Shown here: positions 3,892-20,064 of the stretch, one piece after another
How the letters are laid out: each line of letters opens with the position of its first letter
How positions within the stretch are numbered: position 1 is the first letter of the stretch
Source: an uncultured Oscillospiraceae bacterium
Lineage (GTDB): Bacteria > Bacillota > Clostridia > Oscillospirales > Oscillospiraceae
Length of the DNA: 20,262 nt
Assembly (NCBI GenBank): GCA_934569425.1
Contig: CAKTKM010000013.1
Location: 1 to 20,262, forward strand
Direction: 5' to 3'
Made by a program: the position numbers and the translations under genes
Notes under the pieces: model-generated
The model's input: only the letters and a program-made list of their open reading frames with translations
What the model was told of the DNA's origin: nothing
The model's database searches: none

Positions 3892-4776
3892 TCACGAAAG
3901 CTTTACCGCCCCGTGATAGTCCACCGGCAGATCCCGCACCTGCCAGTGATGCTCCAGCTGCGGCACCGCCCGCTCCATCCGGCCCGCAAAGGACGGATCC
4001 CGGGTGATACACAGTATCGTCGGTCCCGCGCCGCTGATACACACCGCGCAGCATCCGTTCTGATGCGCCAGCGCCTCCACCTGCTCATACTCCGGAATGA
4101 GCCGCTTCCGGTAGGGCTGGTGCAGCCGATCCTGCAGCGACGCGGCGATCAGCGCCTCATCTCCCTGCTCGATAGCCCGCAGCAGCACCGCCAGAAATCC
4201 GGCGTTGCGCACCGCATCGGTGTGGGACACCATGGAGGGCAGCACCCGCCGCGCCTCGTGGGTGCTCAGGGGGAAGTCCGGTGACAGCGCCACCAGCCGC
4301 AGCTCCGGATGGGGCAGATACTCCACCGTATATACCTGCCCGCCCAGCAGCATGGAGGCTGTCAATCCGCCCAGCAGCGCCGGTGCCAGATTGTCGGGAT
4401 GCCCCTCGATCTCCGTGGTCAGCGACAGCAGCTGCCGCTTGTCGAAGGGCTTGCCCGCCATGATGTTGGCGGCCATGGCGCCCGCAGCGATCAGCGCCGC
4501 CGAGGAGCCCAGTCCCCGGCATACGGGGATCTCCGCCTGAATGTGGATGTGGACCGGCGGCACCTCTGCCCGCCGCAGCTCCCGCCACACCCGCTCATAG
4601 GCCACATAGGCCAGATTTTCTCTTGTCTGGTACTGCTCGTCGCAGCCGGAAAAGCTGAGCTTCTCCGCCGGGGTAAAGGACAGCGTGTTATAAAGTCCCA
4701 GCGCACAGCCCAAGACGTCGAACCCCGCCGCCAGATTGGCGGTGGTGGCCGGTACGCGGATCGTCACCTGTTCCAT
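3892..4776 (-). CDS. thrB: Homoserine kinase
   Basis: A 294-residue GHMP kinase that phosphorylates homoserine to O-phosphohomoserine, the substrate of the threonine synthase encoded just upstream. Motif 1 is VRVPATTANLAAGFDVLG-like (residues 6-23), the ATP-binding motif 2 is PVCRGLGSSAALIAAG (84-99), and motif 3 is CISGAGPTILC near residues 249-259. EGHPDNLAPALLGG (124-137) is the conserved substrate-binding stretch. Length is normal for the family (about 290-310). The start codon lies 13 bases inside thrC, with an AGGGG site within the thrC coding sequence, which indicates translational coupling. The order thrC-thrB on one transcript is consistent with a threonine operon lacking hom. Confidence 0.97.
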   Translation of the reverse strand: MEQVTIRVPATTANLAAGFDVLGCALGLYNTLSFTPAEKLSFSGCDEQYQTRENLAYVAYERVWRELRRAEVPPVHIHIQAEIPVCRGLGSSAALIAAGAMAANIMAGKPFDKRQLLSLTTEIEGHPDNLAPALLGGLTASMLLGGQVYTVEYLPHPELRLVALSPDFPLSTHEARRVLPSMVSHTDAVRNAGFLAVLLRAIEQGDEALIAASLQDRLHQPYRKRLIPEYEQVEALAHQNGCCAVCISGAGPTILCITRDPSFAGRMERAVPQLEHHWQVRDLPVDYHGAVKLS

Positions 4777-6260
4777 ACCGCTTCCCCTGCCTTTCTCAGC
4801 ACATACTCCTGCATCTCCTGCCGGTCGATCACATCTCTGTGCCGCACCGCTGCCTGCCGCAGCGATGCCAGATTCTCCGGCACGTTGATGCCTGTCACCT
4901 GATGCAGCCGCTCCATCACGGCGAATTCATCTTCCTCCGGTACCTCGCCAAGCCCCTCCAGCACCGCGGCGGGGAACTTGTAGGGCGACGCGGTGGACAG
5001 CACCACCACCGGCCCGTGTCCGGGATAAGCAGCCTTGTAGTCCTGCGCCGCCTGCCACGCCACCGCCGTGTGGGTGTCCGCCAGATAGTGATGCTCCCGC
5101 CACAGCTGCCCGATGGCCGCCTTGGTGGCACCGTCATCGCAGCAGCTGCTCCAGAACACACGCTGAATCTGTTCCAGCAGCGCCTGCGGTACCTGATATA
5201 CACCGGTTTTCTTCAGCTGCCGCATCAGCGCCGCCACCAGCTCCGTGTCGCCGCTCATCAGATACAAAAGCCGCTCCAGATTGCTGGAGACCAGAATGTC
5301 CATAGAGGGCGACACCGTCCGGTAGAAGGGGCGGTTCCGGTCATACCGTCCCGTCCGCAAGAACTCCGTCAGCACGTTGTTGGCGTTGCTGGCGCAGATC
5401 AGCCGCCCTACAGGCAGTCCCAGCTCCCGGGCAAAGTACCCCGCCAGAATGTCGCCGAAATTGCCGGTGGGTACGGCGAAATCCACCCGGTCGCCCTCCC
5501 GGATGCGCCCCGTGCGGCACAGGTCGGCATAGGCGCGGAAGTAATACACCACCTGCGGCGCCAGCCGCCCGATGTTGATGGAGTTGGCGGAGGACAGCCT
5601 GACGCCCTTGCCTGCCAGCAGGTGATCCCGCTCCACGGCGGCGAAAATATCCTTTACGCCGCTCTGAGCATCGTCAAAATTGCCCCGCACGGCGCATACG
5701 CACACGTTGTGTCCCGCCTGACTCTCCATCTGCCGCTGCTGCACGGCGCTGACGCCGCCGTAGGGATAGAACACCATGATCCGCGTCCCCGGTACGTCCT
5801 GAAAGCCCGTCATGGCGGCCTTTCCCGTGTCGCCGCTGGTGGCGGTCAGGATCAGGATCTCGTCAGCCACGCCGCACTTCTCCCGGGCGGCGGTCATCAG
5901 ATGGGGCAGCATACTCAACGCCACGTCCTTGAAAGCACTGGTGGGACCCCGAAACAGCTCCAGCACCGTGTCGTCCCCGATGGAAACGGAGGGTGTCAGG
6001 TCGGGTGTCTCAAATTTCCCCGCGTAGGCGGCATGAACGAGAGCGTCCATCTCCTCTCTGGAGAAGGAGGGCAGCAGCGCCGTCAAAATTTCTCCCGCCA
6101 TGCCCGGCGTATCCTGCTTCAGCACCGCCCGCCAGTCCAGCGGGATGTCCTGCAGCGACGGCATGGTATACAGTCCCCCGTCGGGAGCCAGTCCCTGCAG
6201 GATGGCCTGTGCCGCCGTGGCACGCAGCGCGTCGTTTCTTGTGCTTTGATATTCCATCAT
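4764..6260 (-). CDS. thrC: Threonine synthase
   Basis: A 498-residue PLP enzyme converting O-phosphohomoserine to threonine and phosphate in the cytoplasm. The N-terminal YQSTRND motif, the PLP lysine K111 in PTSAFKDVALSMLPHLM, the phosphate-binding TATSGDTGKAAMTGF (about 139-153), the SANSINIGRLAPQ segment and VPTGNFGDILAGYFA are all diagnostic of the long (fungal/E. coli-like) class of threonine synthase. Two adjacent ATG codons at 6260 and 6257 are possible starts; GGAGGT lies 7 bases before the first, so I use 6260. It is the first gene of a thrC-thrB operon read away from lysC-asd, from a shared intergenic region. Confidence 0.97.
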   Translation of the reverse strand: MMEYQSTRNDALRATAAQAILQGLAPDGGLYTMPSLQDIPLDWRAVLKQDTPGMAGEILTALLPSFSREEMDALVHAAYAGKFETPDLTPSVSIGDDTVLELFRGPTSAFKDVALSMLPHLMTAAREKCGVADEILILTATSGDTGKAAMTGFQDVPGTRIMVFYPYGGVSAVQQRQMESQAGHNVCVCAVRGNFDDAQSGVKDIFAAVERDHLLAGKGVRLSSANSINIGRLAPQVVYYFRAYADLCRTGRIREGDRVDFAVPTGNFGDILAGYFARELGLPVGRLICASNANNVLTEFLRTGRYDRNRPFYRTVSPSMDILVSSNLERLLYLMSGDTELVAALMRQLKKTGVYQVPQALLEQIQRVFWSSCCDDGATKAAIGQLWREHHYLADTHTAVAWQAAQDYKAAYPGHGPVVVLSTASPYKFPAAVLEGLGEVPEEDEFAVMERLHQVTGINVPENLASLRQAAVRHRDVIDRQEMQEYVLRKAGEAVWNR

Positions 6261-17123: not shown

Positions 17124-17294
17124 ATGGCAAAATTCAAGATCCCCAAGCCGCCGGCATCCACCAACAAGTCCATCCGCGTCCCCAATGAGGTGGTGCAGGC
17201 GGTGGAAGAGGCCATCCGGGGAACGGAGTGCTCTTTTTCTGCATTTGTGGTGGAGGCAGTGCGGGTAGCGCTGGAAAACCTGAAGGAAGAATAA
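17124..17294 (+). CDS. Small ribbon-helix-helix protein (56 residues)
   Basis: A short gene with a GAGGTG ribosome site 5 bases upstream. The 56-residue product begins MAKFKIPKPPASTNKSIRVP and fits an Arc/MetJ-type ribbon-helix-helix: a beta strand (KSIRVP, 15-20), helix A (NEVVQAVEEAIRG, 21-33) and helix B (SFSAFVVEAVRVALENLKEE, 37-56). The S-x-F/F-V-x-E-A-V pattern is that of the dimer core, and the basic and polar strand residues N14-K15 and R18 would contact the DNA groove. It resembles small conserved RHH proteins of clostridia (YlcI/YnfO-like annotations); no toxin gene is beside it, so an antitoxin role is not supported. It follows the D-aminoacylase gene by 40 bases and may regulate this operon or act as a global DNA-binding protein. 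Confidence 0.85.
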   Translation: MAKFKIPKPPASTNKSIRVPNEVVQAVEEAIRGTECSFSAFVVEAVRVALENLKEE

Positions 17295-17366: not shown

Positions 17367-18293
17367 TCAGGAGGACTGCTTCGCGTTGGCGGCGTAGACG
17401 CAGACGCAGATGATGACCACGCCGAGGATCTGCCACAGGCCGAAGGGCTCCTTCAGCAGTACCACGCCGGCCAGCACGCTGACCACGGTAGTAACGTTGC
17501 TGAAAAGGGACGCCTCCGACACCGTCAGGTGGGCGTTGGCGAAGTTCAGCAGGAAGTAGGCCACCACGGAGGACACCAGCCCCAGATAGATCACCGCGCC
17601 CCAGAAGCCGGGGCTTTGCAGGGCGGGCAGGAAGGTTTCGGCCATGTGACCCGCCCCCTGGATCAGGGAGGCGGGGACGAAGAACAGCATTCCCACGGTG
17701 AACATGACGTAGGTGACCTCAAAGGCGGTGAATTTTTCAGAAGCCTTATGGCTGAGGGTATAATAGGCCGCGTCGCAGCCGACGGTCATCAGCAGCAGTA
17801 CCAGACCCAGCAGGGAGACGCGGGTCTCGCCGCCCATGTAGATCAGCGCCACGCCGCCGATGCACAGCAGCGCGCACAGCACCTGACGGCGGGTGACCTT
17901 CTCATGCAGCACCAGCACGTCCATAAGGATACAGGCGATGGGTACCACGGCGATGATGGTGCCGGCCACGGCGGAGGAGGTGTAGAGGATGCCGTAGTTT
18001 TCACAGAAAAAGTACAGCACCGGCTGGATCAGCCCCAGCAGCACCAGTGAGCCGAGGGGCTTGCCCTTCAGGGAGAAGGCAAACAGCGGCCTGCCCCGCA
18101 GCCGTCCGGTCAGGGCGTTCAGCGCAATGAGCAGCGACATGGCGGCAAAGGCAATGACAAAGCGGAAGGCCAGCAGCACGGTGGGCTTGGCCACCTCCAG
18201 CGCCAGCTTGGAGAACATGAAGCTCATGCCGAAGATGGCGCTGGCCAGCAGGGCGAATACCAGCGACAGGGAATGGGTCTTTTTGTTGTTCAT
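17367..18293 (-). CDS. EamA/DMT-family transporter
   Basis: A 308-residue membrane protein of the drug/metabolite transporter superfamily, with two EamA repeats and about ten transmembrane segments. Repeat one includes FALLASAIFGMSFMFSKLAL (about 9-30) and the SSAVAGTIIAVVPIACILMDVLVLHEKVTRRQ helix-loop with the conserved E-K-x-x-x-x-Q; repeat two ends with FSNVTTVVSVLAGVVLLKEPFGLWQILGVVII, the matching E-x-x-x-x-x-Q signature. Substrates of such proteins range from amino acids to drugs and cannot be told here; its orientation suggests an exporter. Three in-frame ATGs exist (18323, 18302, 18293); the last is used because an AGAGAG site is nine bases before it and the protein then starts in the usual family position, but 18302 remains possible. 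Confidence 0.9.
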   Translation of the reverse strand: MNNKKTHSLSLVFALLASAIFGMSFMFSKLALEVAKPTVLLAFRFVIAFAAMSLLIALNALTGRLRGRPLFAFSLKGKPLGSLVLLGLIQPVLYFFCENYGILYTSSAVAGTIIAVVPIACILMDVLVLHEKVTRRQVLCALLCIGGVALIYMGGETRVSLLGLVLLLMTVGCDAAYYTLSHKASEKFTAFEVTYVMFTVGMLFFVPASLIQGAGHMAETFLPALQSPGFWGAVIYLGLVSSVVAYFLLNFANAHLTVSEASLFSNVTTVVSVLAGVVLLKEPFGLWQILGVVIICVCVYAANAKQSS

Positions 18294-18323
18294 AGGTCTC
18301 ATCTCTCTTTCAGGGTACGACAC

Positions 18324-18352
18324 ATCTTATCATAAGGCGGGAAGTTTCGCAA
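18324..18352 (-). promoter_or_regulatory. Promoter for the EamA gene
   Basis: Read on the minus strand: TTGCGA (18352-18347), a 17-base spacer and TAAGAT (18329-18324). It lies after the terminator at 18363-18389, so the transporter has its own transcript. Confidence 0.5.
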
Positions 18353-18359
18353 GACGCAA

Positions 18360-18396
18360 AAGAGAAGCCGGACGGGCGGTCCGGCTTCTGCTTTTT
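18360..18396. terminator. Terminator after the 25-residue peptide gene
   Basis: A 10-bp stem (18363-18372 with 18380-18389) closes on a 7-base GC-rich loop. The minus strand continues CTCTTTTGCG and the plus strand GCTTTTTT. No plus-strand gene ends nearby, so its main service is to end the minus-strand transcript carrying the small peptide at 18456-18533. Confidence 0.8.
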
Positions 18397-18455
18397 TACC
18401 ATAAACCATAGGGGGAAAACAGAATACTGCGCAGGCGCGCTTTGCTGAAAACGCG

Positions 18456-18533
18456 TCACTTGGCCACACGACTGACAACGCCCACGACGACCAGCAGAGC
18501 TGCCAGACCAGCCAATAGGATGTTCAGACCCAT
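18456..18533 (-). CDS. 25-residue hydrophobic membrane peptide
   Basis: A very short reading frame with full gene signals: a promoter candidate (18568-18601), an AAAGGAG ribosome site 8 bases before the ATG, and a terminator about 70 bases after the stop. The product starts MGLNILLAGLAALLVV and ends VVSRVAK, giving one hydrophobic helix of about 17 residues (4-20) and a basic tail (R22, K25), which would orient it N-out/C-in. I do not recognise the family. It is not KdpF-like by sequence, and no transporter subunit genes adjoin it. Possible roles are a modulator of the EamA protein downstream, a type I toxin, or a stress-response microprotein; all are inference. It diverges from a LysR gene whose usual target would be this promoter. 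Confidence 0.65.
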   Translation of the reverse strand: MGLNILLAGLAALLVVVGVVSRVAK

Positions 18534-18567
18534 AACCACCGCTCCTTTCGTTTGTGTTCCCGGGTTG

Positions 18568-18601
18568 ATTATAGGATAGCACAGAGTTATCCATTTGTAA
18601 A
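18568..18601 (-). promoter_or_regulatory. Promoter for the 25-residue peptide gene
   Basis: Read on the minus strand: TTTACA (18601-18596), a 17-base spacer and TATCCT (18578-18573). A perfect TATAAT (18573-18568) follows immediately, but its -35 at 17 bases is poor, so the true -10 is uncertain. Confidence 0.6.
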
Positions 18602-18609
18602 ACGCACCA

Positions 18610-18630
18610 TTTTCATCATTCTCATGAAAA
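18610..18630. promoter_or_regulatory. Candidate LysR operator between divergent genes
   Basis: TTTTCAT-N7-ATGAAAA is a perfect 7-bp-arm inverted repeat with a T-N11-A spacing inside it, the layout of LysR-type binding sites. It lies about 10 bases upstream of the peptide gene's -35 and 6 bases upstream of the lysR -35, a position suited to activation of one and repression of the other. Confidence 0.6.
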
Positions 18631-18635
18631 AATAT

Positions 18636-18664
18636 TTGAACATGAGCGTGAGGTATGGTAGAAT
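18636..18664 (+). promoter_or_regulatory. Promoter for the LysR regulator gene
   Basis: TTGAAC (18636-18641), a 17-base spacer and TAGAAT (18659-18664). The predicted start near 18671 leaves about 19 bases with the AAAGGAGG site before the ATG at 18690. Confidence 0.7.
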
Positions 18665-18689
18665 AAGGGAGAGCAAAGGAGGGGCATAG

Positions 18690-19580
18690 ATGAGTCTGAC
18701 CAAGTACGAGATCCTGCTGAAGGCGGTGGAGTGCGGCAGCTTTACGCGGGCGGCGCAGGAGCTGAACTTTACCCAATCTGGCATCAGCCACGCCGTCAGC
18801 TCGCTGGAGGCGGAGCTGGGGACGACGCTGCTGGCCCGCAGCCATGGCGGCGTGTCGCTGACGGCGGACGGCAGGGCGCTGCTGCCGTATATTCAGCAGA
18901 TGTGCGCCCTGCAGCACCAGATGGAGCAGAAGGCCGCCGACCTGCGGGGGCTGGACACCGGCCTTGTACGGGTGGCCACGTTTACCAGCGTGTCGGAAAA
19001 GTGGATGCCCTATATCCTGAAGAGCTTTCAGGAGGTGTATCCCAAAATCGAGTTTGAGCTGCTGCCCTCCAATTTCAACAATGAGATCGAGGACTGGGTG
19101 GTACATGGGCAGGCGGACTGCGGCTTTATCAGCCTGCCTGCGGAGCAGCATCTGGACTGCTGGCTGCTGCAGCGGGATCAGTGGAAGGTGATCGTCCCCT
19201 GCGATCATCCGCTGGCGGGGCGGGAGCCGTTCCCGGCAAAGGCACTGGAGCAGTATCCGGTGATCCTGCTGGATGAAGGGGATGACTACGAGATACAGGA
19301 GATCTTCGACACGCTGGAGATCCAGCCCAATATCCAGTATACGGTGCAGCAGGATCAGACGATCCTTGCCATGGTGTCCAGCGGGCTTGGGATCAGCGTG
19401 ATGGAGGAGCTGATGCTGCAGCGGTGTGCCTATCCGCTGGTGGCCTGCCAGCTGTCGCGTCCTTTTTACCGGAATATCGGGATCTGCGTCAAGGATAAGG
19501 AGGTCATGTCACTGTCCACCCGGCGGTTCATCGAGCATGTGCGGCGGTGGGTGCTGGTGAACGGAGCGCTGGAGAACTGA
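18690..19580 (+). CDS. LysR-family transcriptional regulator
   Basis: A 296-residue LysR-type regulator. The N-terminal winged helix-turn-helix (1-60) has the typical FTRAAQELNFTQSGISHAVSSLEAELGTTLLAR, followed by a linker helix (MEQKAADLRGL). The C-terminal effector domain (about 90-290) resembles a periplasmic binding protein, with VRVATFTSVSEKWMPYILKSF as its opening strand-helix and VSSGLGISVMEEL before the final third. The effector is unknown. AAAGGAGG precedes the ATG. Its divergent neighbour is the 25-residue peptide gene, not the EamA gene directly; divergent neighbours are usual LysR targets (family knowledge), so the peptide gene is the first target to consider. Confidence 0.95.
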   Translation: MSLTKYEILLKAVECGSFTRAAQELNFTQSGISHAVSSLEAELGTTLLARSHGGVSLTADGRALLPYIQQMCALQHQMEQKAADLRGLDTGLVRVATFTSVSEKWMPYILKSFQEVYPKIEFELLPSNFNNEIEDWVVHGQADCGFISLPAEQHLDCWLLQRDQWKVIVPCDHPLAGREPFPAKALEQYPVILLDEGDDYEIQEIFDTLEIQPNIQYTVQQDQTILAMVSSGLGISVMEELMLQRCAYPLVACQLSRPFYRNIGICVKDKEVMSLSTRRFIEHVRRWVLVNGALEN

Positions 19581-19635: not shown

Positions 19636-20064
19636 TCAGCTTTTTCCGCGGATCTCGCGGCCGCATTTGGGGCAGGTGATGACGATTTTTCCCTTGCCCG
19701 ACGGCACGCGGCAGACGGTTTTGCAGTTGGGACAGGTGAAGTATTTATGCGCCTTGTCCATCCGCTGCCGGCGGCTGCTGTCGTACTTTTGCTTGAGCGG
19801 CCACCAGACCTTTTGCAGAAAGACGGCGTTTTCGGCGCGGCGCTTTTCCAGGTTGCGGGAGAAGACCCGGAACAGCGCCCACAGCACCAGCGCGGTGGAG
19901 AGGATGCCGAGAATGCCGGACAGGACACCGATCTTTTTCACCAGAAGGCTGATGATGTCCAGCACGATGGCGCCCCAGATGGCGCACATCCCCAATGGGT
20001 CGGCGCCGTTGCGGCCGTACATGAACCGGCTCAGCGCATTGCGCAGACGCTGAAAGAAACTCAT
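19636..20064 (-). CDS. Membrane protein with C-terminal zinc ribbon
   Basis: A 142-residue protein of unknown function. A basic N-terminus (MSFFQRLRNALSRFMYGRNG) leads into two hydrophobic segments (about 26-42 and 46-67), a charged linker (70-108, rich in R and K) and a zinc ribbon with C111-P-N-C114 and C131-P-K-C134. The paired CPxC knuckles separated by 16 residues would bind one zinc in the cytoplasm, possibly contacting RNA, DNA or a protein partner. Similar short membrane zinc-ribbon proteins occur in clostridia without an assigned role. The ribosome site is modest (GGCGGAG). It is transcribed alone from the promoter at 20107-20135 and ends at the shared terminator. Confidence 0.82.
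   Translation of the reverse strand: MSFFQRLRNALSRFMYGRNGADPLGMCAIWGAIVLDIISLLVKKIGVLSGILGILSTALVLWALFRVFSRNLEKRRAENAVFLQKVWWPLKQKYDSSRRQRMDKAHKYFTCPNCKTVCRVPSGKGKIVITCPKCGREIRGKS

Follow-up and report, generated by a model that had tools for sequence, protein, structure and literature searches.

A conserved 25-residue single-helix membrane peptide, probably controlled by a divergent LysR regulator, in an Oscillospiraceae bacterium

The window analyzed here (the whole 20,262-base stretch of DNA) comes from a bacterium related to human gut species, and encodes a tiny one-helix membrane protein between ordinary genes. The gene for this protein (18456..18533, minus strand) is translated as MGLNILLAGLAALLVVVGVVSRVAK, a peptide of 25 residues that has no charged residue among its first 21 and ends in a basic C-terminus; its maximum 19-residue Kyte-Doolittle mean is 2.58, and a single transmembrane helix is predicted. 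The ribosome site, AAAGGAG (18542..18548, minus strand), lies 8 bases 5′ of the ATG. When the intergenic minus strand was shuffled 3000 times by dinucleotides, a comparable reading frame (ATG-initiated, 20–40 aa, preceded by a ribosome site and with a 19-residue Kyte-Doolittle mean of at least 1.6) occurred in one shuffle. Each of the elements listed in the sequence-only reading of this locus (the 25-aa frame, AAAGGAG, TTTACA-17-TATCCT, the hairpin, and the palindrome) was present when the sequence was checked again.

The promoter scan places the peptide promoter at 18573..18601 (minus strand; TTTACA-17-TATCCT, 18601-18573), where a TG before the second hexamer gives an extended −10 promoter of the form TTTACA-N14-TGnTAnnnT. 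The divergent promoter of lysR (TTGAAC-17-TAGAAT; 18636..18664, plus strand) was recovered by the same scan, and between the two promoters there is one operator-like site, the perfect inverted repeat TTTTCAT-N7-ATGAAAA (18610..18630), to which LysR is expected to bind; the pattern TTCAT-N7-ATGAA has a single occurrence in the 20,262-base window. The lysR gene (18690..19580, plus strand; 296 aa) has the ribosome site AAAGGAGG (18675..18682, plus strand), and its product matches the Pfam families HTH_1 (9.4e-20, 70.8 bits) and LysR_substrate (4.6e-37, 127.9 bits), both above the cut-off; it therefore has the N-terminal helix-turn-helix and C-terminal substrate-binding domain of LysR-type regulators. 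At the other end of the peptide gene, a bidirectional terminator-like hairpin (18363..18389, listed in both orientations) would end the peptide transcript on the minus strand, and the positions of promoter and hairpin suggest a transcript of about 205 bases. The hairpin had been read as the terminator of this transcript; it is there, but as a terminator it is only fair for the peptide, because the plus strand has the stronger T-run (GCTTTTTTAC; minus strand, CTTTTGCGTC).

A tblastn search with the LysR protein against plasmid and phage records recovered four loci with more than 54% identity. One lies on the Vescimonas fastidiosa record pMM35_01 (L003; LysR 64.6%) and has a homologous 26-aa peptide, and the other three are on human faecal scaffolds filed as phage: L004 (LysR 72.7%) has a 26-aa hydrophobic ORF in the equivalent position, its homology unproven, L005 (LysR 57.2%) has an 84-aa protein with sub-threshold zinc-ribbon matches, and L006 (LysR 54.6%) has nothing recognizable in the peptide's place. 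The homologous peptide is present in two of these five loci (the window and L003), and the DNA-level linkage to LysR rests on these two. The L004 ORF was rejected as a third homologue on its shuffle scores, as 4007 of 20,000 shuffles align with the window peptide as well as it does (159 of 20,000 when the alignment is anchored at the start). Among genome contigs, the LysR protein had no more than two matches, both of them Janthinobacterium genes with 30% identity over residues 9-124, and neither was used further. Scans of viral contigs with the LysR alignment, the peptide alignment, and the operator gave nothing useful, and a scan of the same contigs with the promoter pattern gave three loci, none with a LysR.

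The V. fastidiosa peptide, MILNVILAALAGILAVVGIVSAATKS, is identical to the window peptide at 14 of 25 residues without gaps, and occupies the same divergent place beside lysR. The BLOSUM62 score of the pair is 67, which was matched by none of 20,000 shuffles. The checks proposed in the sequence-only reading, of synteny and of the frame in relatives, bear it out: V. fastidiosa keeps the frame, the ATG, a ribosome site (AAAGGAGG), the promoter, and the operator spacing (the palindrome is 10 bases from the matching promoter in both genomes) beside a LysR of 65% identity, and there is an 18-pair hairpin downstream of the peptide gene. The expected bias toward synonymous substitution is also seen, with nine silent and 11 residue-changing codon differences (NG86: dN 0.37, dS 2.2), although dS is saturated and only 25 codons are compared. 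By comparison with these relatives, the peptide ORF is almost certainly a conserved gene. No listed gene covers the V. fastidiosa peptide in a gene table that is itself incomplete. One peptide match was found in the 860,917-base V. fastidiosa record, as was one match, with three or fewer mismatches allowed, to an operator pattern derived from this very site, beside lysR; a second target was therefore not found on that replicon. A tblastn search with the 25-aa peptide itself against phages and plasmids gave no match, even though the plasmid set contains the V. fastidiosa homologue, and such negatives mean little because this record was missed. On either side of the peptide region of L003, at about 4390-4470 and 4790-4980, are similar stretches (CTCGCAGAGTT... 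and ...TTCGACAG), which by eye look like an intergenic repeat.

The layout of the peptide promoter extends beyond the loci with a peptide. All five LysR loci, including the peptide-less ones, have a −35 box followed by 14 bases and TGnTAnnnT; the −35 box is TTTACA in three of them, TTTACT in L004, and TTCACA in L006. At a gap of exactly 10 bases from that box, three of the five (the window, L003, and L004) have TTCAT-N7-ATGAA, with no further copy in these three stretches, and each of the three has the T-N11-A palindrome conserved between regulator and divergent gene; the palindrome is absent from the promoters of L005 and L006. In a blastn search of window positions 18456-18720 against all plasmid records, the sole match was the V. 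fastidiosa locus (E 5e-3), and the control region had no match among phages. The sequence-only reading had named loss of the frame in close relatives that retain LysR as evidence against the gene; such a loss is found in the more distant loci L005 (57%) and L006 (55%) and not in V. fastidiosa (65%). The simplest reading offered before, a LysR-controlled microprotein, gains support from the V. fastidiosa pair, and from layout and pairing it is likely that LysR controls the peptide, presumably by binding at the palindrome.

Behind the hairpin, in the same direction as the peptide, the window encodes an EamA-family transporter (17367..18293, minus strand; Pfam 8.7e-39) with a promoter-like site of its own (TTGCGA-17-TAAGAT at about 18352-18324, from a loose pattern of our making). 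In V. fastidiosa, the EamA relative (61% identity) is at about 520 kb and lysR at about 310 kb. Given this distance of 210 kb, EamA was rejected as the partner of LysR, and the neighboring gene is probably not under its control; because the relative sits elsewhere, lysR and the peptide gene are the pair that stays together in both genomes. Each locus has a different kind of transporter at its flank: EamA in the window, a MATE protein in L003, and an ABC protein in L004. None of these can therefore be put forward as the partner of the peptide. Two further ORFs were observed in the window: a 56-aa ORF directly after an amidohydrolase gene (17124-17294, plus strand), which weakly resembles ribbon-helix-helix proteins (RHH_1 E 0.097, below the cut-off), and a 142-aa protein convergent with lysR (19636-20064, minus strand), which has hydrophobic stretches, a C-terminal zinc-ribbon-like part, and Pfam matches below the cut-off.

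Protein databases contain a larger family. A search with a 48-aa in-frame extension of the peptide returned five proteins, and a profile of eight sequences (the window, L003, and L004 peptides together with these five) returned 50 database proteins at E ≤ 10 (E ≤ 1e-3 for 45) from 7988 scored candidates sharing the most words; five of the 50 were already in the profile. The L004 peptide is also in the profile, yet by eye none of the 50 listed proteins resembles it. Members are carried by many contigs (112 for P0126, 82 for P0133, and 63 for P0124), and the longest contig has the same length, 91,935, for P0124 and for P0003, a LysR relative at 89% identity, which we read as the two lying on one contig. 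It had been expected that gene callers would usually miss a peptide of this length. This is only partly so, as 48 database proteins contain the core, but just 24 of these begin at the proposed methionine; the other 24 begin further upstream, and in them the ribosome site is often translated as KGA or KEA. We infer that these upstream starts are wrong. Nine of the 24 extended homologues were compared with the control region, and three fit the promoter at the observed spacing: P0144 and P0159 could encode the operator in full together with the promoter, and P0134 the promoter with one half site. The other six do not fit, and their 17–21-codon upstream parts would stop short of the −35 box. Shuffled upstream parts fit in 0 of 20,000 cases for P0144, 0 of 20,000 for P0159, and 56 of 20,000 for P0134, and no fit occurred in a control of 107,004 bases encoding 120 LysR-type proteins. 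Some entries are irregular. In P0135, the start of a LysR is joined to the peptide, by appearance an assembly chimera and a hint only; in P0151-P0154, the core is followed by a common tail ending in LAEAA, with four different residues at the stop position, and the read-through is perhaps due to stop loss or sequencing error.

The sequence-only reading knew of no named family for the peptide; the Pfam and NCBIfam matches are weak and scattered, and none is convincing. For 36 members at E ≤ 1, NCBIfam gave 11 families, the best being smalltalk (0.0018, one member) and the widest the SGM_5486 transporter-associated family (12 members, 0.0074), while Pfam gave nine families with a best E of 0.045; we take these to be chance matches among hydrophobic peptides. 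The literature searched contains no account of the family, and five core strings are absent from it, though supplements of microbiome small-protein catalogues may list it unnamed. The family is conserved and seemingly without a name.

Conservation within the core is mainly on one face of the helix. The entropy analysis used 51 proteins, including those of the window and L003 (P0172, whose sequence diverges after residue 20, was excluded), which reduce to 26 distinct 24-residue cores; L10, A11, L14, V17, G18, and V20 are invariant in all 26. Column variability is periodic, with a peak at 100 to 110 degrees per residue, and helical-moment shuffles gave p values of 0.0037 and 0.0053 for two ranges of the 26 cores and 0.0003 and 0.0011 for the 24 cores with LN, in each case ignoring sequence kinship. 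Positions 3, 4, 7, 8, 10, 11, 14, 17, 18, and 21 form a nearly fixed face, and positions 2, 5, 6, 9, 12, 16, and 19 form a variable face of hydrophobic or small residues, to which the conserved L13 and V20 are exceptions. In an AlphaFold2 model of P0133, the peptide part (residues 18-44) is a helix with block pLDDT of 83 to 95; the whole model has a value of 74.8 and a pTM of 0.37, and the upstream part has a short, uncertain helix at residues 4-8. Such mainly one-faced conservation is expected from a helix that packs on protein, and less from a toxin acting on lipid. The same face could serve for self-assembly.

The tool results support a conserved gene, a kept promoter and operator layout, a pairing with LysR in two lineages, and mainly one-faced conservation. 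The best explanation for these, to which we assign a probability of roughly 0.6, is a LysR-controlled single-span microprotein that modulates a membrane protein in the manner of WatR-WatS or AcrZ. LysR would bind the palindrome between both genes and, answering a small molecule, would switch the extended −10 promoter of the peptide; the direction of this regulation, like the topology and partner below, is something we infer. The sole product of the one-gene transcript of about 205 bases would be the 25-residue single-span membrane protein, which would insert as one helix with its basic C-terminus probably in the cytoplasm. The conserved face (L3, N4, L7, A8, L10, A11, L14, V17, G18, and S21) may then pack on an integral membrane protein, which is probably either a transporter or part of an energy-conserving complex, and docking would change the activity of this partner. 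Both the conserved face and precedent make it reasonably likely that the peptide docks on a transporter or complex. A bolder form, which we hold only tentatively, is that an Oscillospiraceae LysR (e.g., that of V. fastidiosa) is mainly devoted to one 25-residue helix and that this helix founds a conserved family of microproteins, which tune a membrane transporter or complex by docking through one face of the helix.

In Methylomonas sp. DH-1, the LysR-type regulator WatR is described as controlling unannotated genes for the WatS small polypeptides, four of which have one transmembrane segment; the WatS promoters are intergenic with inverted-repeat binding sites, and WatS1 appears to act via an efflux pump (PMC10355033). 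The combination of a LysR-type regulator with single-span small proteins is like that proposed here, where LysR control is probable. However, by that account the WatS polypeptides are about 50 aa and come from five genes, while the present peptide is 25-26 aa with one copy in the V. fastidiosa record, and thus lacks both the length and the several copies of WatS; WatR sites overlap the −35 box, whereas the palindrome here is 10 bases upstream of it; and WatS has a co-regulated RND pump in a Gram-negative methanotroph, whereas no pump is known for the Oscillospiraceae peptide. At half the length and with no known pump, the family may be likened to WatS by description, and membership is not claimed. 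AcrZ of Escherichia coli (49 aa) binds and modulates AcrB, and is a small single-span protein with its N-terminus outside and C-terminus inside, as proposed for the peptide along with docking; what matters for its recognition is reportedly the overall bent shape and not specific residues (PMC7267776), and because of this a conserved face is not required by precedent. No AcrZ model is among the 11 NCBIfam and nine Pfam families matched by the 36 members at E ≤ 1.

CydX, KdpF, and similar proteins are short subunits, each with a single helix, of large membrane complexes on which they dock, and the peptide could be a regulated accessory subunit of this kind, belonging to a respiratory or energy-conserving complex and not modulating a transporter. 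Its size is similar to that of known small subunits, and a docked subunit would account just as well for the one-sided conservation. Known examples, CydX and KdpF among them, are usually encoded in the operon of their complex, whereas the window peptide stands alone beside a regulator and no such complex adjoins it in the window or in L003, making this reading unlikely. We consider still less probable a small, membrane-active toxin or stress peptide under LysR control (like TisB, Fst, or a holin) that would depolarize the membrane. The size, hydrophobicity, and basic tail do resemble type I toxins in general terms, and the gene has its own promoter and hairpin. Fst (PMC10903887) and TisB are likewise short and hydrophobic, but the plus strand from 18250 to 18632 has no promoter-like site for an antisense RNA. 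The phage holin family TIGR01598 was weakly matched by two of 36 members (best E 0.025), and at E ≤ 1 neither Pfam nor NCBIfam gave a match to a type I toxin model. One-sided conservation also speaks against a toxin, as does the lack of charge in window residues 1-21.

Two further readings, in which the protein is not the point of the transcript, were rejected. The ORF might encode a leader peptide, with the hairpin serving as attenuator of the EamA gene, given that EamA follows the hairpin and is read in the same direction and that the peptide is rich in Leu and Val, as are the leaders of branched-chain amino acid operons. This is very improbable: the co-directional gene is found behind the hairpin in the window but not in V. 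fastidiosa, where the gene after the peptide and its hairpin is a convergent MATE gene and the EamA relative is found at a distance of 210 kb; there is a separate promoter-like site for EamA; and conserved Ala, Gly, Asn, and Ser positions run along the whole core, beyond what a codon run would explain. Nor is the transcript at all likely to be chiefly a regulatory RNA with an incidental ORF, for which it could be cited that it is short, stands on its own, and has a terminal hairpin. Its fold energy is ordinary (z −0.95), no Rfam family reached the gathering score (four sub-threshold matches, E 0.05 to 0.29), dN is below dS, and homologues whose encoded upstream parts differ keep the same protein core. 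The rejection was made on the Rfam result and the fold energy.

If the peptide is a LysR-controlled docking microprotein, then a membrane protein of 25 residues with a dedicated regulator at its side is a rare handle, in that the function of the microprotein may follow once the signal of LysR is found. Because conservation is mainly on one side, a docking face can be predicted and put to the test in this conserved family, which is recorded with two different starts and has no convincing Pfam or NCBIfam match. The L005 LysR, with a zinc-ribbon-like gene under the same promoter layout, would in that case be a regulator that has swapped its small effector. In the pMM35_01 record, the best match of the L005 LysR is the same V. 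fastidiosa LysR (58%), and the next is 30%; the 84-aa CxxC protein with sub-threshold zinc-ribbon matches (L005 4256-4512, minus strand) replaces the peptide under a matching promoter layout, and a change of target under one kind of regulator is possible. The records of L004, L005, and L006, which come from human faeces, bear the name 'Bacteriophage sp.' Genes of an ordinary chromosome (for aspartokinase, threonine synthase, a tRNA ligase, and EF-G) can be made out by eye in L004 and L005, and integrase-like genes in L006.
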